45,880 nt of DNA from Candidatus Omnitrophota bacterium. Lineage in GTDB: Bacteria; Omnitrophota; Gorgyraeia; Pluralincolimonadales; Pluralincolimonadaceae. Each line of letters opens with the position of its first letter. Position 1 is the stretch's first letter. Where the stretch lies: positions 1 to 45,880 of the forward strand of contig JAQUPL010000010.1 in the NCBI GenBank assembly GCA_028716565.1, read 5' to 3'. The position numbers and the translations under genes were made by a program. The notes beneath the pieces are model-generated. The model was not told the origin of the DNA. It did no database searches and worked only from the letters and a program-made list of their open reading frames with translations. Positions 2,728-45,880 of this stretch are shown piece by piece.

Positions 2728-2991
2728 GTGGCGGCTGGGGCGGCTGAGCGTGGTGAAGCGATGATGCGGCGTTCGACCGCTGGCTTTGACCGGCGGAGTG
2801 ACGCTGCTTGCAGGGGGAGCGTAGCCGTGCACGGCGGCGCGATGATCCTTGCTAAGGGCCGTGGTGGTGGCCTGCTTGCGCGAGCGAACCGGTGGAGTCC
2901 ATGCCTTGTCGTCTCCAAGGGGTGCATGGTCAGAGACACCGGCCACCAACTTTGTGCTTATGCCGGGGCCGAGGGCATAGGGGATGAGTGA
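2728..2991 (+). CDS. Doubtful ORF, up to 87 aa
   Basis: A GTG directly follows the previous stop. The ORF is Gly/Ala/Arg-rich with no clear domain, and no good ribosome binding site precedes it. It covers most of 2728-3093, a stretch without a convincing gene. The same stretch holds a 20-codon ORF (2984-3046) and, in another frame, a relic resembling the end of the 2258 gene. It may be real or a decayed gene region. Confidence 0.25.
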   Translation: MAAGAAERGEAMMRRSTAGFDRRSDAACRGSVAVHGGAMILAKGRGGGLLARANRWSPCLVVSKGCMVRDTGHQLCAYAGAEGIGDE

Positions 2992-3093
2992 CCGTAATTA
3001 TATTCCTAGACGGAACTCATCACGGAGGCGATGGCCGCATATATAGGCGCGGCGTGTAGGCCCCGGCTTTCTTTACGTGAGGAGGTGAGAGGG

Positions 3094-8565: not shown

Positions 8566-8988
8566 ATGGCGAAGAAGAAAGCAAAGCGGAAAGTGGGTCA
8601 TCCAGTAACACGGTGGACGCCGACCGCGAGAGAAAACCTGCTCGACGCGTTACTGAAATATATCGACGCGAATGACATTCCTATTCTCACAGAGTTTGCT
8701 TTCTTGAACCGCGTGCATCGCTCACAACTATATGAGTTAGAGGAGTTGTCCGACGCTATAAAATTGTGTATCGAGAAAAAGGAAGCCGGGCTGGAACGGC
8801 TCATGCTGTCGGGGAAGCCTAATACCACCACGGGTTGTATCTTCTCTTTGAAGCAACTTGGCTGGAAAGACACGCAATCAATTGAGCATACCGGTGCTGT
8901 CGATCCTGTGCAGGAGATGACCTACGAACAGCGGCAGGCGTACATCGACGCGCTTGTCAAGAAACGAAATGGCTCTAACGGTAGCTGA
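8566..8988 (+). CDS. terS: Terminase small subunit, 140 aa
   Basis: It should recognise phage DNA and recruit the large terminase for packaging. The basic N-terminus (AKKKAKRK) precedes a helical DNA-binding region (ENLLDALLKYIDANDIP to FAFLNRVHRSQLYEL), then IEKKEAGLERLML and FSLKQLGWKD, a pattern typical of DNA-packaging proteins of the gp3 kind. It sits directly upstream of terL and overlaps it by 20 bases. Length is typical. Confidence 0.85.
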   Translation: MAKKKAKRKVGHPVTRWTPTARENLLDALLKYIDANDIPILTEFAFLNRVHRSQLYELEELSDAIKLCIEKKEAGLERLMLSGKPNTTTGCIFSLKQLGWKDTQSIEHTGAVDPVQEMTYEQRQAYIDALVKKRNGSNGS

Positions 8989-10309
8989 GGAACGCGGCCT
9001 CATACGGGCAGCGCTACAGCAGGAACGGGAGCGGGTGGCTCCGAAGCTGGAGGCGTTCCGCAGGCAGTCAAGGATCAAGGTGTGCTACGGTGGGCGCGGG
9101 GCTGGGGCGAAGTCCTGGTCCATCGCTTCTCTACTCTGCCAGCGGGCACAACGAGAAAAGATACGGGTACTCTGCACACGGGAGATACAGCTATCGCTTG
9201 AAGAGTCAGTGTATCGGTTGGTACAGCAGACGGTAGAGCGGCTACGATACGAGGGCTGGACGCCGACGAAGGAATACATCAAGTCGCCACGGGGCTCTAT
9301 GTTCTACTTCCGTGGGTTGAAGGATATGCGGGCTTCCTTGGCGATCAAGGGGCTGGAAGATATCGACGTGTGCTGGGTAGAGGAGGCGTCGGCGGTAAGC
9401 AACGATTCGCTGGACATGCTGTTCCCCACCATCCGCAAAGCGAAGAGCGAACTATGGTTCTCATTCAACCGCGAGGAGGAAGCGGACCCGGTATACGAGC
9501 GGCTTGTGCGCCATGCTCGTGACGATTCGGTGGTGGTATGGCTGGACCCCGGGGAGAAGGACAATCCATGGTGGACGGGCGAGCTGCAGAAGGAGATGGA
9601 GGAGGACTACAAGCGCGACCCGGACCAGGCCGAGCATATCTGGGGCGGGCAGCCACGGGCGCAGGGGCAGAATGCTGTTATGTCGAGGACCTCGATACGT
9701 GGCGCTATGGATAGGGATATTGAGGCTGAGGGGGCCATCGAGATAGGAGTAGACGTGGCTCGGTTCGGGGACGACTTGACGGTGATGTACAAGCGGCACG
9801 GGTTGAAGACGATAGACAAGCGGGAGTTTTCAGGGCAGGATACTCAGCAGACAGCGATGGAGGCTTGGGACTTGGCCGGGCATGACGCATCGGTGGTAGT
9901 CAAGGTTGATGATGACGGGGTGGGCGGTGGTGTCACCGATAGGCTACGCGAGCTTGGGGCGCAGGTGCTGCCGATCAACTTCGGCGGCGCATCGCAGGAT
10001 AAAGACTCGTACACCTCGGCGGGCGACGAAATGTGGTTCACCTTTCCTATCGACGAAGCGGATATACCGAACGATCCGATACTCATGCAAGAACTCGCGG
10101 GGCGGAAGTATGACTACGATGTCAAGGGCAGGCGCAAGATCGAGCCGAAGAAGGATTTCAAGAAACGCATCGGGAGATCGCCGGACAGGGCTGACGCGCT
10201 GCTCCTTACCTACTACAACCGGCATCCGATAACGGGATTGTATGATTACCTGCGTCAGCAGAATATGCTCGAGCCAAAGAAGAGGGAGACGATCTATGAC
10301 AGACGTTGA
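8969..10309 (+). CDS. terL: Terminase large subunit, 446 aa
   Basis: ATP-driven packaging motor and headful or site-specific nuclease. Walker A is GGRGAGAKS (residues 41-49), Walker B is DVCWVEEA (about 133-140). The nuclease half shows VDVARFGDD (251-259), KVDDDGVGGG (312-321) and a late PDRADAL. This matches the Terminase_3 (PBSX/SPP1-like) architecture. I use ATG 8969; an earlier start at 8954 would add five residues inside terS. The portal gene is unusually far away (24668). Confidence 0.93.
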   Translation: MALTVAEERGLIRAALQQERERVAPKLEAFRRQSRIKVCYGGRGAGAKSWSIASLLCQRAQREKIRVLCTREIQLSLEESVYRLVQQTVERLRYEGWTPTKEYIKSPRGSMFYFRGLKDMRASLAIKGLEDIDVCWVEEASAVSNDSLDMLFPTIRKAKSELWFSFNREEEADPVYERLVRHARDDSVVVWLDPGEKDNPWWTGELQKEMEEDYKRDPDQAEHIWGGQPRAQGQNAVMSRTSIRGAMDRDIEAEGAIEIGVDVARFGDDLTVMYKRHGLKTIDKREFSGQDTQQTAMEAWDLAGHDASVVVKVDDDGVGGGVTDRLRELGAQVLPINFGGASQDKDSYTSAGDEMWFTFPIDEADIPNDPILMQELAGRKYDYDVKGRRKIEPKKDFKKRIGRSPDRADALLLTYYNRHPITGLYDYLRQQNMLEPKKRETIYDRR

Positions 10310-16029: not shown

Positions 16030-16893
16030 ATGAAACTATCATTAGGAACAGTACAGCTCGGAGTTCATTACGGAGTAAACAACACAAAGGGGATGCTCAC
16101 CGACGCGGAGGCCAACACGCTGCTTGCCACTGCGCGGCGTGCGGGCTTCACCATGCTCGATACTTCCTCGGAATACGGGCTGGCCGAGGAGCGCATCGGA
16201 AAGTATCTACAAGCGCATCCGGATGCATTCGAGGTGAACGGGAAGTACAACGCTGCGTATCCAAGGGAAAAGATTCTCGCGCTGATCGAGCAGAGCAAGC
16301 GGCGCATGAGTCGGGTCGACCATATCATGTACTACTGCATCGGGGTGGATATCGCGAAGCTGAATCCGGAGGGCGCGGATGGCGTATCGGTTTATGACGT
16401 GGCGGAAGCGGAAACGGTCCATTCGTTGCCGTACAAGAACATCCAGGTACCGGCGTCGATCCTTGACGGGCGCATGGATGCGGAGCTTAGGGTCCTTCGT
16501 TCACTTGGCAAGCGAACCTTCGTTCGCAGCTTACTACTTCAAGGGCTGCTATCCGAACCCTATGGCGGCGTCCTTCGCGGCAACGTTGGTAACGGAGCGT
16601 TTATCGAAGCAGCGAAGCCATACCTCATCGGCCTGCGAGAGATCGCCGACGAAAACGATATGAGCGTGGTAGAGATGGCCGTGCGGTGGGCGTGGCACCT
16701 CGATCCTGACGTGGCGATATTCGGGGCTGAGACGCCGCAGCAGGTCAACAACATCGGAGTCTACTGGAAGAAGGGGCCACTACACAAATATGTAGTGGAT
16801 CAAGTGATGAACCTGCGATTGGGTATTCCTGATATCGTAATCTCACCTCGCCTATGGGGTCAGGTATATGATTTCACTCCGGCAAAAGCTTAA
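16030..16893 (+). CDS. Aldo/keto reductase family protein, 287 aa
   Basis: The opening SLGTVQLGVHYGVNNTKGM and MLDTSSEYGLAEERIGKYL match aldo/keto reductases of the type found in surface-sugar clusters, which use NADPH to reduce sugar carbonyls. Of the usual Asp-Tyr-Lys-His tetrad, Asp44, Tyr49 and Lys72 are present, but the His position appears to be Tyr102 (VDHIMYYC). Activity may therefore be altered. There is no ribosome binding site and the promoter ends at the ATG. The end overlaps the aminotransferase by 26 bases. Confidence 0.8.
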   Translation: MKLSLGTVQLGVHYGVNNTKGMLTDAEANTLLATARRAGFTMLDTSSEYGLAEERIGKYLQAHPDAFEVNGKYNAAYPREKILALIEQSKRRMSRVDHIMYYCIGVDIAKLNPEGADGVSVYDVAEAETVHSLPYKNIQVPASILDGRMDAELRVLRSLGKRTFVRSLLLQGLLSEPYGGVLRGNVGNGAFIEAAKPYLIGLREIADENDMSVVEMAVRWAWHLDPDVAIFGAETPQQVNNIGVYWKKGPLHKYVVDQVMNLRLGIPDIVISPRLWGQVYDFTPAKA

Positions 16894-17980
16894 CGTCTAC
16901 GAGCCGCTTTCGGTACAGAACTTAGGACAGCAGATTCCTGAATGGCGCAACGCAAAGGGGGCGCACGTTGCAGGATACATCGACTTTACCTCTGGCCTCC
17001 TCACCGCGAATATCGGGCACGACAATCAAAGCGTTTCTGATGCCATCGCTAAATGTAGAGGGTGGTCAGGCTGGTACGCTCCAACGCAGCATAGACTGGC
17101 GACGTATCGGGCTTTGGACTCCATACTGCCACGCTACCTTGATCGCTATATCCTTCTTTCCACCGGTTCCGAGGGTATTGATTGTGCAATCAAGATAGCG
17201 GTTGACAACGGGTTCAGGGTCCTCACGCATGAGCGGTCGTACCATGGCTCCACGATAGGGGCTGGGTGGGCTGGGGGGCTGGCAAAGAGCGCATTCTTCG
17301 GGAAGTGCGGACATATCGAGCGGCTGTCGGAGGAAGACAAGACAGCGGTGCTACTGGAGACGTTCATCGGGCCATGGTGCGAATGGTATCCGCCGTCGTT
17401 CATCGAGACGTTGAAGAACCTCCAGCACAAGGGCGGGATCGTCATATTCGACGAGATGCAGGCCGGGTTCGGGCGCACAGGGACCTGGTTCGGGTTCGAG
17501 CACTACCATCTCGCGCCTGATATCGTGGTGGGGGGGAAGGCGGCGGCGGGAGGGATGCCGTTCGCGTTCGTGGCCGGGCGAGCAGAGCTGCTGGACAAGA
17601 ACCCGGAGGCGGACTACGTGTCCACGTTCTCAGGGAATCCGTTCGGGTGCGCGGCCTGCGTAGCTACCATAGCGGAGATCAGGTCGAAGCACCTGCTCGA
17701 CAAGGTGAAGAGAGACGAGGGGATCATCCGGCAAGCGGCCGAGAGGATGCAGGAGAAGGGGCTTATTGATGGGTTCATGGGGAAGGGGTTTGCGTTCTCG
17801 TTCTACATGGTCAACGCGGCGAAGGTTGTGGAGGTGGCGAGAAACAAGGGGCTGCTGCTTATCGATACCGGGCGAGGGACGGTGAAGATTGCGCCTCCGC
17901 TTGTCATATCCAGAGCTGATTTGAGGATAGGGTTGAAGGTGATTGAGGATGCTATCAAGGTTGTGCGGCGCAGAAAATAA
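16868..17980 (+). CDS. Class III pyridoxal-phosphate aminotransferase, 370 aa
   Basis: Fold-type I transaminase of the GABA/glutamate-1-semialdehyde group. Visible motifs are STGSEG (98-103), SYHGST (124-129), FDEMQAGFGRTG (194-205, Asp195), the PLP lysine Lys224 in VGGKAAAGGMPF, and STFSGNPFGCAA. It would transfer an amino group to or from a sugar or small aldehyde/ketone. Beside the reductase and the cytidylyltransferase it suggests amino-sugar or nonulosonate-like synthesis. A little shorter than the typical 420 residues. Confidence 0.87.
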   Translation: MISLRQKLNVYEPLSVQNLGQQIPEWRNAKGAHVAGYIDFTSGLLTANIGHDNQSVSDAIAKCRGWSGWYAPTQHRLATYRALDSILPRYLDRYILLSTGSEGIDCAIKIAVDNGFRVLTHERSYHGSTIGAGWAGGLAKSAFFGKCGHIERLSEEDKTAVLLETFIGPWCEWYPPSFIETLKNLQHKGGIVIFDEMQAGFGRTGTWFGFEHYHLAPDIVVGGKAAAGGMPFAFVAGRAELLDKNPEADYVSTFSGNPFGCAACVATIAEIRSKHLLDKVKRDEGIIRQAAERMQEKGLIDGFMGKGFAFSFYMVNAAKVVEVARNKGLLLIDTGRGTVKIAPPLVISRADLRIGLKVIEDAIKVVRRRK

Positions 17981-27844: not shown

Positions 27845-28795
27845 ATGGCGATATATGCAACCGGGCTGACGTTAGCGGATATTGCACGTCGGCTTGGCGG
27901 CGATCAGCCTATCCTTGTTGACGCTCTCACTCAGGGTGGCGGCAGTCCTACGTTTGCGCGCATTCCGATGCGGCAGATTACTGGATGGGTGGAGCCGTTC
28001 ACTCGGATTGTCGGGCGGCCCACTGTTGCGTGGAGGAGACTCGGCGCATATGTGGCTGCATCGAAGAGTGAGCGCACACCTCATTCGGAAGGCGTATTCC
28101 TTCTGTCGGGGTGCAGCGAAGTCGACAAGATCAGGGCAGATCGCGATCCCAGGGGACCCACGGCGCTTAGGTCAGAGGAAGCTTGGAGCTATCTCGAAGC
28201 GCTGGGTCATAGTCTAAGTCAGCAGTTCTTCTACGGTGGCACGTCCGTCTGCACCACGGCAGCGTCCGATGGGTTTGACGGGATGTGCGCCAGAGTCGTG
28301 TCAGTGGTGAGCACCTATATTCAGTGCTCGACTGGTTCTACTGGCGACTCGGTGTATGCGTTCAAGTTCGGGCCGGGCAAGTTCATGGGCATCTACAACG
28401 TGGGGCCGAGCGGGAAGCTTATCGAAGCGAACGACTACGGCGCGATTGTGGACACGGACAACACGGGTTCGTCCGCGAGCCTGAACGAGCTTTACCGCAC
28501 GTTCTTCAACGCTGCATTCGGTGTCGCGCAGTATCATCAGCTCGCAGTGGGACGGATCAGCGGGCCGGCAAGTTCTCTCGCAACGATTGACTTCACGAAC
28601 CTGTACGCGGGCATGGAGCAGAAGCCGGACCTGTTCGTCACCACATGGAGGGGATGGGGATGCATCAGCAAGATGATCGAGGGTAAGCAGAGTTATCCGC
28701 CTGGGGTAACTGATTACACCCCGTATGCTGGGTTCTACGACGGCATTCCCATCATCGTCGATAATGCGCTCATCGCTGATGCGAAGATGTGCTGA
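27845..28795 (+). CDS. Major capsid protein, 316 aa
   Basis: ATG 27845 follows GAGAGGAGCAAGG. Position after scaffold and before decoration and connector genes, plus length, fit an HK97-fold capsid protein. Recognisable family-like segments include LTLADIARRLGGDQPILVDAL at the N-terminus, a central SLSQQFFYG, SLNELYRTFFNAAFG, and a C-terminal YAGFYDGIPIIVDNALI. I judge by context and pattern, not by a catalytic motif. Confidence 0.83.
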   Translation: MAIYATGLTLADIARRLGGDQPILVDALTQGGGSPTFARIPMRQITGWVEPFTRIVGRPTVAWRRLGAYVAASKSERTPHSEGVFLLSGCSEVDKIRADRDPRGPTALRSEEAWSYLEALGHSLSQQFFYGGTSVCTTAASDGFDGMCARVVSVVSTYIQCSTGSTGDSVYAFKFGPGKFMGIYNVGPSGKLIEANDYGAIVDTDNTGSSASLNELYRTFFNAAFGVAQYHQLAVGRISGPASSLATIDFTNLYAGMEQKPDLFVTTWRGWGCISKMIEGKQSYPPGVTDYTPYAGFYDGIPIIVDNALIADAKMC

Positions 28796-28810: not shown

Positions 28811-29290
28811 ATGGCGACTTTATACGACGGGACGATGCGGGCAGTCCGCGACCAGGACCTTGTGTTCTGGGATGGGTCAGGTACGAGCTGGACGAGAGGG
28901 CCTACGCTTGAAAGCACGGTCAGCTCCGAATCTGATATCGTAGACCTTGGCAAGGCGCAGGAGTTCCCGAACCGGCCGCTGGCTATCATGTTCGAAGCGA
29001 CGGCCTCGGTTTCGGCTCCATCAGCGAACTCGACGCCGATTACGCTGGATAGGATTTACATCCCCGGGCTCTTTGTCCAGGATGCCGCAGACGGGAGCAC
29101 CTTCTCCGACATTCTGTTCGTGAAGTTCCCGGCGGATGCGTCCTATGCTGTTACGGCGGAGGCTTTCAGCGATATGGCGATTGGTATCGTGAAGTGCCGA
29201 AGGTACCTGAGACTGTATAACAAATGCGGTATCGGGACCACAGGAACTATCAGGGCGTGGCTGCGGATGGGTCTGACCACGCAGGCATGA
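28811..29290 (+). CDS. Probable head decoration protein (Bbp16-like), 159 aa
   Basis: Starts after AAGGAGATCAGAG, just behind the capsid gene. Beta-rich, with an opening VFWDGSG and a VDLGKAQEFPNRPLAIMFEA segment resembling the small Bbp16-type capsid cement proteins. No cysteines at conserved places. Assigned by position and pattern. Confidence 0.6.
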   Translation: MATLYDGTMRAVRDQDLVFWDGSGTSWTRGPTLESTVSSESDIVDLGKAQEFPNRPLAIMFEATASVSAPSANSTPITLDRIYIPGLFVQDAADGSTFSDILFVKFPADASYAVTAEAFSDMAIGIVKCRRYLRLYNKCGIGTTGTIRAWLRMGLTTQA

Positions 29291-29300
29291 GGAAGCTGCG

Positions 29301-30182
29301 ATGAAGCAGCAGCTGGTCAAGGCATCCACGACGGATCAACTTGAGCTGGAGGTATGGGACCATACTGTGCAGGTGGTCCCTACCTCCGCTAAAGTATCCA
29401 TCATCGTAGATGGATCGACGGACGTGTCTCTTGCCACCGCTACGATATCGGGGACGGGAACGTGTTCGTATGTTCCTGGTGCTACCATTCTCGATGAGTT
29501 GGTTGAAAACTGTGTCGCGGTATGGAAGCTCACAATCGGTAGTGAGTACAAGTATTTCCGCGATATGTTCGACGTGGTTCTCAATCCGCTTTATCCTGCG
29601 GTGACTGACGAAGACCTGATAGCGGAATGTGCGCAGTTGCAAGACACGAAGTACATGGAGGCCGGCATAGCCGATTCGGGAACCACGGTGACGCTGGTAG
29701 CGGTTGCGCTGAAAGAGTATCAGGACAACCACTTCCAAGGTGGGACGCTGGAGATTACCGATGGTGCGTGCAAGGGGCAGAAGCAGAGGATATCTGGCAA
29801 TACGCGGTCGACGGGTACCATCACGGTCGATACCACGTTCGGCTCGGCGCTGACGGCTACTTCTCGGTTCATCGCAAGGCGCACGTTCCAACGCGAGATT
29901 GACCGGGCATGGGAAGACGTGATGGCGATGGTGCAGACGAAGGGATACCGGCCTGCGCTGATCATGAACTCTGAGGACTTGCGGCCGGTGCACCTCGCGT
30001 GGACGCTGGTAAAGATTTGTAGGAACCTCTCGAAGTCTCCTGATGACTTGTGGTGGCAGCGGGCAAACATCTACGTGGAGGACTACACTAACAAGATGAA
30101 CATGGTGAAGTTCAACTACGATAGCGATGAGGACCAGTGGCCGGATTCGAGTCTATCGTTCAGAGCCGCGCTGAGGAGATGA
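29301..30182 (+). CDS. Head-tail connector region protein, 293 aa
   Basis: N-terminal half (residues 1-110) is beta-rich and Ig-like (KVSIIVDGSTDVSLATATISG). The middle resembles a beta repeat (QKQRISGNTRSTGTITVD), and residues 195-270 form a helical bundle (REIDRAWEDVMAMVQTKGY, WTLVKICRNLSKSPDDLWW) as in adaptor proteins. Located between decoration and tail completion genes; connector or adaptor is the likeliest role. Confidence 0.65.
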   Translation: MKQQLVKASTTDQLELEVWDHTVQVVPTSAKVSIIVDGSTDVSLATATISGTGTCSYVPGATILDELVENCVAVWKLTIGSEYKYFRDMFDVVLNPLYPAVTDEDLIAECAQLQDTKYMEAGIADSGTTVTLVAVALKEYQDNHFQGGTLEITDGACKGQKQRISGNTRSTGTITVDTTFGSALTATSRFIARRTFQREIDRAWEDVMAMVQTKGYRPALIMNSEDLRPVHLAWTLVKICRNLSKSPDDLWWQRANIYVEDYTNKMNMVKFNYDSDEDQWPDSSLSFRAALRR

Positions 30183-32356: not shown

Positions 32357-33968
32357 ACTCTCATCGAATCTGAAGCAGGTCAACAGCACGCTCCAGCAGA
32401 CTCGTGATATCGGGCAGAAGACAGCGGAAGGCGTTAGCGGATTTACAAGTAAAATCAAATCGGCCATCCAGCCGATAAGAGACTTCTCCCGAATGATGTC
32501 GAGTCTCATGGCGGCAGGTGGGCTCGTGGCCTTATTCATGCGGGTTGCTAATGCCGTCGGTGACATGGAAAAGGCATACGCCAAACTTCATCCGGAATCG
32601 CAGAAGGCGGCAGGATCATTAGCGGCATGGAACGAAGCCATGTTGAATTTGAAAGCTCAACAGGGGGAGATAGTAGCTACTCTGCTCGGGCCTATTCGCG
32701 AAGCATTTATAAGCATGTTAGACCCGGTTGGCGCTGCGACACGGGAGATGAAGAATTTCAATACAGAGCTTGGAAAGCTTGTAGACAAATATAAATCGGA
32801 TGCTACAAAGAAACTTCAAGATCATGCTGCTATGATGTCTACGCTCACTATGGCGCAAGAGCGATATAGGAGGGCCGTTTCAGCTCAGGTATATATCGAG
32901 AGAGATTTGGCAGATGCTCAGGAGTCTGTCAATACAGCCATGAAAAGTCTTGGCCTCCCAGGAGCATCGGAAGCGATATTAAAAGCACAGCAGAGAGTAG
33001 AAATACTTCAAGAGCGGTTGGCGCAGAATAAAACGACACTCGAAGAATCTGCTATTCTCATGCGCGAGATTCCTCAGATACTCAGGGAGCAGGCAGATAA
33101 AGCAAAGACCACAGCCGATGTAACGGTGAAAATATCAGATGCCGAAAAGCTGATGAACGAATATCTAAAAGAGAATCTTGGGTTGCAAATCTTGCGGCTG
33201 GAAACGGCGCAAGAATATATGGACACGATAGACCGTATGTGGAAAGCGCCGACAGGAAAGGGTGCGGCAGCAGGGGCCACGACATTCGCTCCTAAAATAG
33301 GGCGAACGGCTACTGCGCCATTTCAAGCGATTGATATTGAACTCGCCGCTCAACTTGCCGTAGAGGGGGAAGAGCTGGCAAGGATAAACAATCTGCAACA
33401 GACGTATATCGGAAATACGATGGTCATGATTGAGAAGAACGAGGAACTTGCAGATTCATTCGATAACCTCGGATTGTCGCTATTGCAGGATGCGCTTGTA
33501 GGGGTAGCGGAGGCGTTCGGGCAGGCCGTGATAGGGGCGCAGAGTTTAAGCGATTCCATGGCGCAGCTCATCTCCTCAATACTTCGTACACTCGGTCCGC
33601 TCATGATCCAGAAGGGGCTCGAAGTTATCGTAGCGAATCCTGCGCTCGGGCTCGCGCTGATCGCGGCGGGCGGGCTATCGATAGTCGGCGGGGCTGCCTT
33701 CGGTGCTGGTACAAACACGCAAGGGATACCGAATCCGAATGCGCCTCGGAAGTTCGCTACTGGCGGCGTGGTGACGGAGCCGACGCTGGCGCTCCTCGGG
33801 GAACGTGGGCCGGAGGCCGTGGTGCCGCTCAATCCTTATTCGCGGCGAGGTGGGAGATCGGCGGCGGGGATAGGAGGTATCACGATTGTAGCACCGAACG
33901 CACGATATCTGGACGGCAGGACGGCGGCGCAGTTGGTGCGTCAGGGTCTTGTAGCTATGAGATCATGA
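32310..33968 (+). CDS. Tape measure protein, 552 aa
   Basis: Sets tail length. Long helices and coiled coils fill residues 1-330; a hydrophobic stretch lies at 430-465 (LGLALIAAGGLSIVGGAAFGAG). The C-terminal signature FATGGVVTEPTLALLGERGPEAVVPL is typical of tape measures. At about 1.5 angstrom per residue this predicts a tail near 80 nm, short for a siphovirus. Confidence 0.9.
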   Translation: MGERDTYQIVLQLKDELSSNLKQVNSTLQQTRDIGQKTAEGVSGFTSKIKSAIQPIRDFSRMMSSLMAAGGLVALFMRVANAVGDMEKAYAKLHPESQKAAGSLAAWNEAMLNLKAQQGEIVATLLGPIREAFISMLDPVGAATREMKNFNTELGKLVDKYKSDATKKLQDHAAMMSTLTMAQERYRRAVSAQVYIERDLADAQESVNTAMKSLGLPGASEAILKAQQRVEILQERLAQNKTTLEESAILMREIPQILREQADKAKTTADVTVKISDAEKLMNEYLKENLGLQILRLETAQEYMDTIDRMWKAPTGKGAAAGATTFAPKIGRTATAPFQAIDIELAAQLAVEGEELARINNLQQTYIGNTMVMIEKNEELADSFDNLGLSLLQDALVGVAEAFGQAVIGAQSLSDSMAQLISSILRTLGPLMIQKGLEVIVANPALGLALIAAGGLSIVGGAAFGAGTNTQGIPNPNAPRKFATGGVVTEPTLALLGERGPEAVVPLNPYSRRGGRSAAGIGGITIVAPNARYLDGRTAAQLVRQGLVAMRS

Positions 33969-37769: not shown

Positions 37770-37843
37770 CGCGGAGTGGAGCAGTGGTCAGCTCGCCGGA
37801 TTCATGGTCCGGAGTGTCGCAGGTTCGAATCCTGCCTCCGCTA
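37770..37843 (+). tRNA. tRNA with CAT anticodon, initiator (fMet)-like
   Basis: A full 74-base cloverleaf: acceptor 2-7/66-71 paired, D stem GAGC/GCTC, anticodon stem CCGGA/TCCGG with CAT at 37803-37805, T stem GCAGG/CCTGC with TTCGAAT loop. Position 1 (C) and 72 (T) do not pair and pair 11-24 is A-T, both initiator hallmarks. The anticodon stem lacks the third G-C pair, position 37 is G, and the variable loop has six bases. No CCA is encoded. It sits 5 bases after one gene and 1 base before the endolysin ATG. Confidence 0.82.
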
Positions 37844-39826: not shown

Positions 39827-40043
39827 TGGTGATGGATATATTCCGGGGGGAGCTACCAGAGAACATCACGCTACATGGTGTAAACTAGTCGGGGAGAAGG
39901 AGCTTCCAGTAGCAAAATATTATAAGGAAAAATCAACAGGGAAGATTTATCGTGCTGATGAATATTATGATACCGCACTCAGTCCACATGAGATGATTCC
40001 TGTGGATATCAAAAAACCCAAGAAAGGAAAGAAGAATGGCTAA
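39819..40043 (+). CDS. Hypothetical protein, 74 aa
   Basis: ATG 39819 follows AAGGAGAGGG. Somewhat AT-rich. The middle looks beta-rich (KYYKEKSTGKIYRADEYY), with a Lys-rich tail (KKPKKGKKNG). It overlaps the ERF gene start by 8 bases. Function unknown. Confidence 0.55.
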   Translation: MPNGDGYIPGGATREHHATWCKLVGEKELPVAKYYKEKSTGKIYRADEYYDTALSPHEMIPVDIKKPKKGKKNG

Positions 40044-40929
40044 GCAGCGGGGCCGGCCGAGGAAGACGACGTTGCCGGCCGTGGTGAAGGAAGCGCCTAT
40101 CGCGCTGGCCGAGGAGCCGAAGGTGCCGACCGTCGTCGACGCGCAGGCGCTCATCGCCCGGGCCATCGACAAGAACCTGCCCATCGAGAGCATGGAGCGA
40201 CTGCTCGCGATGCGGAGGGAGCTGCGGGCCGAGTGGGCGCGGGATCAGTTTTTCTCTGCTCTCGCCGGCTTCCAGCACGAGTGCCCTACGGTTGAAAAGA
40301 AAAGCAAGGTGCAGAACAAGGATAAGACCCTTCGGTATTCCTATGCACCTCTCGAGGATGTCGTCGAGACTGCGAAACCGTTTCTTGAAAGGTGGGGATT
40401 CTCTTGGACGATTAAGCCCACGCAGGTCAACGGAAACGTAAAGGCATCCTGCTATCTTCACCACAGAGACGGACATGAGGAACTGACCGAGTTCGAGGTT
40501 CCTCTCGATCCTGATTCGTACATGAGCAATCCGCAGAAGGCAGCGGCAGCTCTCACGTTTGCCCGCAGGTATGCCTTCATCAATGCGACCGGAATCGTGA
40601 CAAGGGGAGAGGACAACGATGCTCAGAAGGAAGGGGATGAACCGAGAGATCGGAAACCGATTCTTGCCCCTCGGGCTGCTACCTCAACTCCTACTCCGGC
40701 TCCTGTCTTGGCCCCGAAGAACGATTATGAAAAGTGCGTCCACTATCTCGAAGCTACCGAGTTCGACAAGGTGACGGGAAAGCACATCCAGCTTTTCAAT
40801 CCCAACGAGATCACCGACTACACCAATCAGGCCAACATCGCAAGGAAGAATCCGGTGGAGTTGAAGATCGTCATGGACGACATCATCGAGACCGGCAAGA
40901 AGCGCCGCGCGGCAATCAAAGGAGCATGA
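40036..40929 (+). CDS. ERF-family single-strand annealing protein, 297 aa
   Basis: Promotes annealing of complementary single strands in phage recombination. The N-terminus has an AT-hook-like RGRPRK. The ERF core is at residues about 70-190 (FFSALAGFQHECP, YAPLEDVVETAKPFLERWGFSW, ALTFARRYAFINATGI). A Pro/Thr linker leads to a C-terminal helical part. Neighbours are a coiled-coil protein and a PD-(D/E)XK nuclease, the expected partner. Confidence 0.87.
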   Translation: MAKQRGRPRKTTLPAVVKEAPIALAEEPKVPTVVDAQALIARAIDKNLPIESMERLLAMRRELRAEWARDQFFSALAGFQHECPTVEKKSKVQNKDKTLRYSYAPLEDVVETAKPFLERWGFSWTIKPTQVNGNVKASCYLHHRDGHEELTEFEVPLDPDSYMSNPQKAAAALTFARRYAFINATGIVTRGEDNDAQKEGDEPRDRKPILAPRAATSTPTPAPVLAPKNDYEKCVHYLEATEFDKVTGKHIQLFNPNEITDYTNQANIARKNPVELKIVMDDIIETGKKRRAAIKGA

Positions 40930-43697: not shown

Positions 43698-43997
43698 ATG
43701 AGAAAGGTTATTGTGCTTCTGGTGGTTCTTCTCGCGGTGGCTGGCTGCGATTTATTCGCGCCTGATCCGTTTCTCGGCGTATGGGTTTATGGTGATATTC
43801 TCTCGCTGTTCTTCGACCAGAATGGCGTGGTGATGAACGACAAGATAAACCACGTATCCTACGACGGCGAGTATTACTACGATGATGACACACTCACCAT
43901 CGAATGGATCGGCTATCCGGTAGAGAGAATACCATACGAGTTTATCGGCGACGACATCCTGCGGCTGTACGGCTTCATGGACTTCGTGAAACAGTAG
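43698..43997 (+). CDS. Predicted lipoprotein, 99 aa
   Basis: ATG 43698 follows GAGGAGG. Signal peptide and lipobox VAGC (Cys at about 18), then a small beta-rich domain (FLGVWVYGDILSLFFDQNG, EYYYDDDTLTIEWIG) of the lipocalin-like type seen in many bacterial lipoproteins. With the preceding lipoprotein and upstream of the integrase, it is a candidate lysogenic-conversion or exclusion gene. Confidence 0.65.
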   Translation: MRKVIVLLVVLLAVAGCDLFAPDPFLGVWVYGDILSLFFDQNGVVMNDKINHVSYDGEYYYDDDTLTIEWIGYPVERIPYEFIGDDILRLYGFMDFVKQ

Positions 43998-44026
43998 TTG
44001 ACAGGTAGCAGCAGGTGTGATATGCT
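43998..44026 (+). promoter_or_regulatory. Strong promoter upstream of the integrase
   Basis: A perfect TTGACA (43998-44003), 17 bases, TATGCT (44021-44026) preceded by TGA (extended -10). The expected start is about 44033. It overlaps the lipoprotein stop region and would drive the structured RNA 44033-44154 and, by readthrough, the integrase. Confidence 0.7.
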
Positions 44027-44032
44027 TGCGTC

Positions 44033-44154
44033 TGTTGCGGGTTGGAAGCCGCAGCGAGTCTTCTGTGTGGGACGGGTCGGGTCTATCGTGTAAGGGGGGT
44101 CCACACAGCCCTCGGCGCTTTCCACGCCACGCACGGTAGACCCGACCCTTTTTT
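44033..44154 (+). ncRNA. Candidate pseudoknotted leader RNA or small RNA
   Basis: Predicted helices: a first hairpin (44034-44040 with 44049-44055); helix A 44063-44073 with 44099-44108 (10 pairs, one bulged G); helix B 44074-44090 with 44132-44148 (17 pairs, one G-U). A and B interleave in the order a-b-a'-b', an H-type pseudoknot. T6 follows helix B. With a promoter at 43998 it would be an approximately 120-base RNA. It could attenuate the integrase or be an independent sRNA. Confidence 0.55.
44074..44154 (+). terminator. Intrinsic terminator in front of the integrase
   Basis: Arm GGGTCGGGTCTATCGTG (44074-44090) pairs with CACGGTAGACCCGACCC (44132-44148), 17 pairs with one G-U, followed by TTTTTT (44149-44154). 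The integrase Shine-Dalgarno GGGAGA starts at the next base, so integrase expression depends on readthrough or on another start. Confidence 0.75.
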
Positions 44155-44164
44155 GGGAGAGAAT

Positions 44165-45175
44165 GTGACTGATAATCTACCGGATAAAATAGTCGACCTT
44201 CCGGGCGTCGCGGAGGGCTTGCGCCGAATCGCGCGGATATTCGAGTCGGTCAAGAGCTTCGAGGACGTGGAGCGCGTGTTCCTGAAAGGCGCGGGCCTCG
44301 CGGCCACGACCTATCGAAGCTACCTCGCGGCGGTGCGCGATTTCTACGCGCACACTGGCGGGCTCAACCCGCTACAGGTGACGCCGGCGATGATTGAGGA
44401 CTGGTACGACACCTTATCGAAGCGCGTGGGCCGGGGCACGGCGTACTGCCGTGTTCAAGGGCTGAAACGATTCTTCCGTGGTGTCGGCGCCGTGGTGCCG
44501 TTTTATATATCACCATTTGATATCATGAATGAAAAACTAATACAAAAGTTGAGTCGGACAAAGAAGGGAAACCGCACTAAGCCGGCGTTATCATGGTCAG
44601 AGCTTACAGCGGTGATGGCGTGGCTCGGCAGTCTGCCGACGCTGCGGGCGCGGCAGGACCGGGCGCTGCTACTGTTCCTCGCGACCAGCGGGCTGAGGGC
44701 GGCGGAGTTTTGTCAACTTCGCTGGGGCGACGTACAGGAGCGCGAGGGCATGCTGTCCGTGACATTCACGGGCAAGGGCGCCACCGACGCGGAGCAGGAA
44801 GTCTACAAGCCGGCGCTTGACGCGCTGCGCGAGGTGTTCCGCGAGCAGCACCGCCGCGACCCCCAGCCTATCGACGCGATCGCGTGGACCCTGCCGTGGG
44901 AACGGACGCGGGCAGCGGCGCCGATGAACTACGCCGTTTTGTACTCTCGGATTCGCGACCTGGGCGTGGCGGCGCGGAAGGCCGGAATTATATCTCGTCC
45001 ATTCGTGTGGTCACCTCATGCTTTGCGAAGAACATATTGTACCATTCTAAGTAAATCCGGAATGGATCTAGCAAGTATTTCTAAAAAGATGAGACATGCA
45101 AGAATAAGTGGCCTAACAGAATATATCGATACAAACGAAACAGCCGGACCATATTTAGAAAAGATGATAAAATGA
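44165..45175 (+). CDS. int: Tyrosine recombinase / integrase, 336 aa
   Basis: GTG 44165 is 4-5 bases after GGGAGA and directly behind the terminator. N-terminal SAM-like core-binding domain at residues 15-105; catalytic domain with Arg168 (SGLRAAEF), Lys194 (FTGKG), His285 and Arg288 (SPHALRRTY), His311 (RHAR) and the nucleophile Tyr320 (LTEYI): a complete Xer/Int-type set. The gene is patchy in base composition; 44500-44560 and 44985-45175 are AT-rich, suggesting a mosaic. Integrates and excises the prophage. Confidence 0.92.
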   Translation: MTDNLPDKIVDLPGVAEGLRRIARIFESVKSFEDVERVFLKGAGLAATTYRSYLAAVRDFYAHTGGLNPLQVTPAMIEDWYDTLSKRVGRGTAYCRVQGLKRFFRGVGAVVPFYISPFDIMNEKLIQKLSRTKKGNRTKPALSWSELTAVMAWLGSLPTLRARQDRALLLFLATSGLRAAEFCQLRWGDVQEREGMLSVTFTGKGATDAEQEVYKPALDALREVFREQHRRDPQPIDAIAWTLPWERTRAAAPMNYAVLYSRIRDLGVAARKAGIISRPFVWSPHALRRTYCTILSKSGMDLASISKKMRHARISGLTEYIDTNETAGPYLEKMIK

Positions 45176-45880
45176 GCAAACGATTCTTTGATACTGGTAT
45201 CTGGAAACGTCCGTGGTTTAGAGAACTTACTCCAGAAAACAAAACTGCGTGGTTTTATATCCTTTCAGAATGTGACAATGTTGGAGTGTGGATTGCGGAT
45301 AAAAAAGCAGCTGAATTCTTTGTCGGTTGCGAAGTTGATTGGGAAGATTTAATTTCTCATTGCCATGACAATATCGAGGTATTAGAAAATGGTAAGTGGT
45401 GGGTAAAAGATTATTGCAAATTCCAGCATGGTGATTTGATGAGCAGGAAGGATTCTGCGGTGGTACGTAGTTACCTTTCGTTACTCGATGAACATGGTTT
45501 GAAAGATAGAGTATACAAACAGTTTACAAACAGTTGCCAAACTGTACAAGGAAAAGGAATAGGAAAGGGTAGGGGAAAGGGAACAGGAAAAGGAGGAATG
45601 GATGATGAAGAATTCTCGGCGTTCTGGACTGCATATCCTCGGAAGATAGCTAAGGCTGATGCTCTTAAAGCGTGGAAGGCGAGAGAGAAGGACAAGACGC
45701 TCGATACCTCTGAGCTCATGGCTGCTGTGGCGACGTACACGAAACAGATGGCTGGCAAGGAGCTGGAGTACGTGATGCACCCGGCGACGTTCCTGGGGCC
45801 GGCGCTGCGGTGGAAGGACTATCTCACGACTGGCTCGAAGTACGTGCCGGCGTCGAAGGCGAGCGACGACCTCGCGTGGA
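45172..45880 (+). CDS. Replisome organiser / replication initiator, N-terminal 236 codons (continues at 1)
   Basis: ATGA-coupled to the integrase. The N-terminus (FDTGIWKRPWFRELTPENKTAWFYILSEC, then VGVWIADKKAAEFFVG) is the winged-helix domain of phage replisome organisers (DnaD-like), which bind the origin and load helicase. A GKGIGKGRGKGTGKG linker follows, then FWTAYPRK-KADALKAWKA, typical of the C-terminal part. With residues from 1-201 the protein is 260 aa. The gene carries candidate origin repeats at 45514-45535. Confidence 0.85.
   Translation, partial: MSKRFFDTGIWKRPWFRELTPENKTAWFYILSECDNVGVWIADKKAAEFFVGCEVDWEDLISHCHDNIEVLENGKWWVKDYCKFQHGDLMSRKDSAVVRSYLSLLDEHGLKDRVYKQFTNSCQTVQGKGIGKGRGKGTGKGGMDDEEFSAFWTAYPRKIAKADALKAWKAREKDKTLDTSELMAAVATYTKQMAGKELEYVMHPATFLGPALRWKDYLTTGSKYVPASKASDDLAW
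45514..45599 (+). other. Candidate replication origin: 11-bp iterons and polypurine tract
   Basis: TACAAACAGTT occurs twice in perfect tandem (45514-45524, 45525-45535), followed by an inverted half-site AACTGT (45540-45545). A nearly pure A/G tract follows at 45548-45599. The upstream half of the gene is AT-rich. The 11-bp period is not a multiple of three, so the repeat is not explained by protein coding. Lambda likewise carries its origin inside its initiator gene. Confidence 0.5.
45754..45880. repeat. Terminal overlap, copy 2 (identical to 1-127)
   Basis: Exact copy of bases 1-127; see the first entry. It marks the circle join inside the replisome organiser gene. Confidence 0.95.

Follow-up and report, generated by a model that had tools for sequence, protein, structure and literature searches.

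A promoter, a folded leader and an intrinsic terminator form a candidate gate in front of a phage integrase gene

The integrase gene (int) of the phage genome analyzed in this study is directly preceded by a strong promoter, a highly structured leader and an intrinsic terminator, in this order, and the sequence between terminator and gene leaves no room for another promoter. The elements are of exceptional strength within the phage, and the protein encoded downstream is an authentic integrase. We consider it fairly probable that this arrangement works as a gate on int and on the overlapping replication gene, and that it releases a stable RNA of about 120 nt. If the gate is real, termination just before the gene would allow the phage to hold integrase levels down with no repressor devoted to this task. 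Moreover, the leader would represent a simple two-element test case (a promoter and a terminator leader) in a poorly sampled group of phages.

Results

The window, that is, the whole stretch of 45,880 nucleotides that was analyzed, is one contig in its entirety, taken from a metagenome-assembled genome (MAG) of 1.7 Mb. Comparison of the contig ends revealed identical 127-base sequences at positions 1-127 and 45754-45880. This terminal repeat identifies the contig as a complete phage genome of 45,753 bp, circular or circularly permuted. The called phage genes lie nearly all in one direction, and those relevant to this work are the following:

8954-10309, terminase large subunit (TerL)
27845-28795, major head protein
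40036-40929, Erf single-strand annealing protein
44165-45175, + strand, Xer-like tyrosine recombinase / phage integrase (int), 336 aa, GTG start
45172-45880, + strand, DnaD-like replication-initiation gene, which crosses the contig end and encodes 260 aa once the contig is circularized

The phage also encodes a tRNA with a CAT anticodon (37770-37843), just 5' of a peptidase M15 (endolysin-like) gene, and carries an aminotransferase-like gene at 16868-17980 (phrog_2736, E 3.6e-35).

A first-pass annotation of this DNA had named the gene downstream of the leader as an integrase, and this identification was confirmed by a match to Pfam PF00589 (E 4.4e-18). In an alignment with five homologues, catalytic residues R178, H285, R288, H311 and Y320 are invariant, and the protein therefore combines the PF00589 domain with the catalytic R, H-x-x-R, H and Y of tyrosine recombinases. 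The nearest solved structures are those of XerA, XerC and XerD, and the nearest relatives in the searched collections share about 23-31% identity with the protein. Judged from its sequence, Int is apparently a genuine and intact tyrosine recombinase. A perfect 11-base complement is found between the lipoprotein gene located upstream (43914-43924, TATCCGGTAGA) and the first int codons (44176-44186, TCTACCGGATA); it could mask int in upstream read-through transcripts, or be due to chance.

The region upstream of int comprises the following elements:

43998-44026, + strand, sigma-70-type promoter TTGACA-N17-TATGCT, a consensus match
44033-44056, + strand, 5' hairpin of 8 pairs around an 8-base loop, where the RNA is predicted to begin
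44058-44073, + strand, short hairpin GUCUU/GGGAC with loop CUGUGU (44063-44068) in the minimum-energy fold
44074-44154, + strand, intrinsic terminator, with stem B at 44074-44091/44131-44148 and U6 at 44149-44154
44099-44108, + strand, 3' strand of helix A (GUCCACACAG), which the minimum-energy fold assigns to hairpin 44095-44113 (loop and flank)
44155-44159, + strand, GGGAG, the likely int ribosome binding site, assigned from the sequence

The -35 box of the promoter (TTGACA, 43998-44003) directly follows the stop codon of the lipoprotein gene located upstream; a 17-base spacer separates it from the -10 box (TATGCT, 44021-44026), which has a TG ahead of it (extended -10). The predicted transcription start lies at about 44033-44035. 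With a score of 14.84, approximate because of the matrix frequencies used, this is the top sigma-70-type site on both strands of the phage, and none of 20 simulated Markov genomes (one strand each) equaled it, the maximum being 14.6; scoring was against the E. coli consensus, which may not suit the host of this MAG contig. The strong near-consensus promoter proposed in the first-pass annotation is therefore well founded in position and rank. From 44027 to the contig end, a consensus scan found no promoter-like site on the + strand.

The RNA predicted to start at this promoter is highly folded. The minimum free energy of the 122 bases at 44033-44154 is -65.5 kcal/mol (z -5.24), a value as low as which was reached in none of 200 shuffles. 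After GC correction, this is the lowest energy among 4562 windows covering both strands of the phage; the window grid was set to include 44033, which introduces a small bias, and overlapping offsets also rank within the top six. The earlier proposal of a highly structured leader is thus upheld, as no other 122-nt window of the phage folds as stably after GC correction. Three elements make up the nested minimum-energy fold: hairpin 44033-44056, a small hairpin at 44058-44073, and stem B. The 39-base loop of stem B folds into two further hairpins (44095-44113 and 44114-44128). A hairpin and two interleaved helices, A and B, had been described after the promoter, and all three can be found at those positions; hairpin 44058-44073 overlaps the 5' strand of helix A (44063-44073).

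Two other regions of the phage drew attention for their possible structure. A strong symmetric fold at 29221-29460 (hairpin TGGAGGTATGGGACC.../...GGTCCCTACCTCC), around the point where gene 28811-29290 gives way to gene 29301-30182, ranks second in stability within the phage, both strands included. In addition, about 350 bases at 2728-3080 lack a convincing gene and are bounded by GCCGGGGCC/GGCCCCGGC (2962-2970/3059-3067), followed by TTTCTTT. An Rfam search of this region gave no match, and a second structured leader at 2728-3078 was rejected because its fold was no more stable than shuffles.

Helix B comprises 17 pairs (44074-44090/44132-44148), and an extra U-G pair brings the stem to 18. 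Such an 18-pair stem was unmatched in 300 shuffles, the maximum being 16, and a scan for stems of at least 9 pairs revealed no other terminator with a stem of at least 10 pairs in the phage, in either direction. The stem is GC-rich and is directly followed by U6; at the sequence level, helix B and T6 are a textbook intrinsic terminator. The T6 tract (44149-44154) is followed by GGGAG (44155-44159) and by the int GTG at 44165, so that 10 bases separate the U-tract from the start codon. The claim that a terminator abuts the integrase ribosome binding site thus proved right. Since the gap between terminator and int holds no promoter, every int transcript coming from upstream must read through B. 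Within the leader, the only features that exceed chance are helix B and the architecture of 5' hairpin and terminator.

Discussion

We propose that RNA polymerase would start at the strong promoter at 43998 and transcribe a leader of about 120 nt, from a stable hairpin at its beginning to the U6 terminator formed with helix B. The majority of transcripts would end at B and give rise to a short RNA protected by hairpins at both ends, and int and the replication gene would be transcribed only by those polymerases that read through B. Read-through might occur by leakage, or a phage or host factor might cause antitermination, although neither a protein nor a site for antitermination was identified. 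The same terminator would also halt transcripts arriving from the upstream early genes. The int stop and the start of the DnaD-like gene overlap (ATGA), which would place both genes behind the same gate. We infer that transcription starts and stops at the predicted sites; read-through may be regulated and may serve to limit integrase, and the leader may be linked to lysogeny. The first-pass annotation had proposed either an attenuator of the integrase or a structured small RNA. What holds of this proposal is the terminated structured leader, whereas helix A is not a conventional antiterminator, because helices A and B use disjoint bases.

A comparable layout is found in the lambda PR'-tR' leader (6S RNA of lambda), which is read through with Q. 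As is generally known, both systems share a strong constitutive-type promoter, a structured leader, an intrinsic terminator before a gene block and a short RNA by-product. In contrast to lambda, where the block consists of late genes, the block in this phage is formed by int and a replication gene, and neither a protein resembling Q nor a corresponding site was identified. The put element of HK022 is an RNA element of about 70 nt with two stem-loops near an early phage promoter (PMC9378689). Comparing the layout only, the first 76 nt of our leader likewise form two hairpins before the terminator. However, put suppresses downstream terminators and is not itself a terminator, and no sign of antitermination is apparent in the leader.

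The anatomy of the leader, with a strong promoter, a 5' hairpin and a 3' terminator, is also that of a stable small RNA. It is possible, although we regard it as unlikely, that the terminated transcript of about 120 nt is the product of a trans-acting small RNA gene and that its place before int is incidental. Its possible targets include phage or host RNAs, or it may bind a protein. Phage small RNAs acting on phage mRNAs are known, for instance STnc6030 of BTP1 (PMC12197685), and the leader has a 14-base and a 12-base antisense match (44112-44125 and 44080-44091) that lie close together in the tape-measure gene (33223-33252). However, about 5% of 122-base windows have a reverse-complement match of 14 bases, and 8 of 2282 have a two-match cluster. 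The tape-measure site also falls outside the best duplexes and is half buried in stem B, and we rejected it as an antisense target because its duplex energy is no better than that of shuffles. Similarly, shuffled loops form predicted duplexes with the phage + strand that are as good as the best ones of the actual loop, and no homologue of the RNA was found, hence no conserved seed.

A plain insulator is a less probable explanation, and a rather doubtful one. In that case the terminator would simply end early transcripts that arrive from upstream (erf to lipoprotein), the match to a promoter would be spurious or weakly used, and there would be no regulated read-through. The terminator does lie between two groups of genes in the same direction, and it would act on any upstream transcript. 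A precedent exists in terminator T1 of Tn916, established as a terminator that keeps upstream transcription out of mobile-element genes, in an element where the cis-acting antiterminator RNA canT overcomes terminators (PMC11658703). Both cases have in common a terminator that guards the expression of mobile-element genes, but Tn916 is an integrative conjugative element of Gram-positives and its guard is located at the element end, not before int. What speaks against a plain insulator is that the phage has its best promoter just upstream, correctly oriented and spaced, and that int and the replication gene would under this reading be left without any promoter in our scans.

The first-pass annotation had also interpreted helices A and B as an H-type pseudoknot, a claim that our analysis did not support. 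Helix A (44063-44073/44099-44108) has 10 Watson-Crick pairs and a bulged G at 44071. Compared with shuffles, it gives P = 0.05 for 8 Watson-Crick pairs in a row and P = 0.25 when G-U pairs are allowed, and by duplex energy it is matched or beaten in a fraction of 0.11-0.26 of the shuffles; its strength is not above chance. Nor is helix A part of the nested minimum-energy fold, in which its strands fall in two separate hairpins whose loops (CUGUGU, 44063-44068, and CCACACA, 44101-44107) could make a kissing contact of 5-7 pairs at most. A rough estimate by hand, from computed stem energies and a typical pseudoknot penalty, would place the A+B pseudoknot several kcal/mol above the nested fold. 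Moreover, the full pseudoknot is likely to be sterically strained, because A directly abuts B and a stretch of just 8 bases, between the B 5' strand and the A 3' strand, must span the 17 pairs of B. With one helix at chance level and the nested fold favored, an H-type pseudoknot is not supported for the leader. Since A and B have no common bases, they are not a classical antiterminator/terminator pair either, and the full-length fold contains no strong competitor of B, that is, no mutually exclusive helix using bases of the terminator stem.

In a genuine pseudoknot, helix A would fold first and confine the B 5' strand in a 25-base loop, B would form slowly and polymerase would escape; when A is lost, termination would be restored. 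Helix A is in fact present in the minimum-energy fold only for RNAs that end at about 44108-44114, before the B 3' strand exists, and the tight junctions described above would favor such a confinement. However, helix A is at chance level and the leader reaches -65.5 kcal/mol without it, which makes this explanation very improbable. Fainter still is the prospect of a topological antiterminator, in which a base-disjoint helix loops the B 5' strand almost too tightly for a stem of 17-18 pairs; if true, pseudoknot formation itself would decide read-through into the integrase gene. A pseudoknot would make the leader unusual, and this claim is unsupported beyond chance.

The attachment site of a phage usually adjoins int, and 43998-44164 is the sole non-coding stretch beside int, with arms that are long inverted repeats; a DNA-level element, in which these repeats are binding sites for a recombinase or for replication (attP or origin), is highly improbable nonetheless, because T6 is directional and follows the stem on the + strand only, the arms lie 41 bases apart, unlike the 6-8 bp spacing of tyrosine recombinase cores, and no credible matching site exists elsewhere in the host-assigned genome. 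An attP was sought by matches to the MAG and none was found, and an attachment-site role for the leader DNA is unlikely.

The proposed gate can also be compared with known families of phage and integrase-associated RNAs. STAXI is a pseudoknot-type motif found near XerDC-type integrases, other DNA-handling genes and sometimes c4 antisense RNAs (Weinberg 2010, PMC2864571), and it is built of two or three tandem pseudoknots (PMC2864571). The layout of our leader recalls this motif near XerDC integrases, but it has one unit with no tandem copies, and no match to STAXI in Rfam was obtained even at E up to 10. In type III toxin-antitoxin systems (ToxI), a promoter, a pseudoknot-forming RNA, an intrinsic terminator with low-rate read-through and a protein gene follow each other (PMC5086642), the same order of promoter, RNA, terminator and protein gene as in our phage. 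However, the downstream gene in the phage encodes an integrase and not an endoribonuclease toxin, and no tandem antitoxin repeats precede the terminator. Finally, the c4 antisense RNA of P1/P7 (RF01695) is, like the leader, a phage RNA with paired complementary segments, and it controls nearby genes; in the leader, by contrast, the complementary segments lie within one RNA, and no Rfam match to c4 was found.

Relatives of the leader and of the phage

DNA searches for homologues of the RNA in 59 related genomes, phages and plasmids returned only short chance matches. Across 197 genomes of the class and related loci totaling about 520 kb, a single-sequence covariance model matched nothing but the window itself, and Rfam searches with gathering and relaxed thresholds gave only chance microRNA-like matches to the long hairpin. 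The exact pattern TAGACCCGACCCTTTT had five matches in viral contigs, all unrelated and in apparently coding DNA, and was discarded. Likewise, no relative of int above about 30% identity was found in genome contigs, in related, phylum-wide and Gallionellaceae-order genomes, or in viral contigs, which were searched twice, the second time with two patterns derived from a weak alignment of two sequences. Six integrases were also aligned, but their divergence was too great for a profile scan. Integrase searches of viral contigs, bacterial genome contigs and related genomes did not lead to a homologue of the RNA, and no long-stem terminator with the same placement was seen in relatives.

Neighbor genes also served as queries. 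Searches with TerL, capsid, Erf, DnaD-like and BTLCP sequences found related phages for all except the DnaD-like query, none of them with the leader RNA. Viral contigs contain related TerL proteins with up to 79% identity, a Gallionellaceae MAG has one with 70%, and a related capsid protein shows 68% identity. One related phage locus (L042) has erf and its two downstream neighbors at 44-63% identity, and another (L045) has a transglutaminase-like gene at 58% and a DnaD-like gene at 46% identity. Neither of these records contains an integrase or a match to the leader RNA. This fits with an RNA that travels with the integrase as an accessory block, as judged from these two possibly incomplete records. 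In the Salinibacter phage M8CRM-1 (L067:761-1265), inspection by eye revealed a tRNA-like fragment (GGACGTAGCTCAATTGGGAGAGCAGCGGACTCCAAATCCG) upstream of the integrase gene, which is probably an attachment site.
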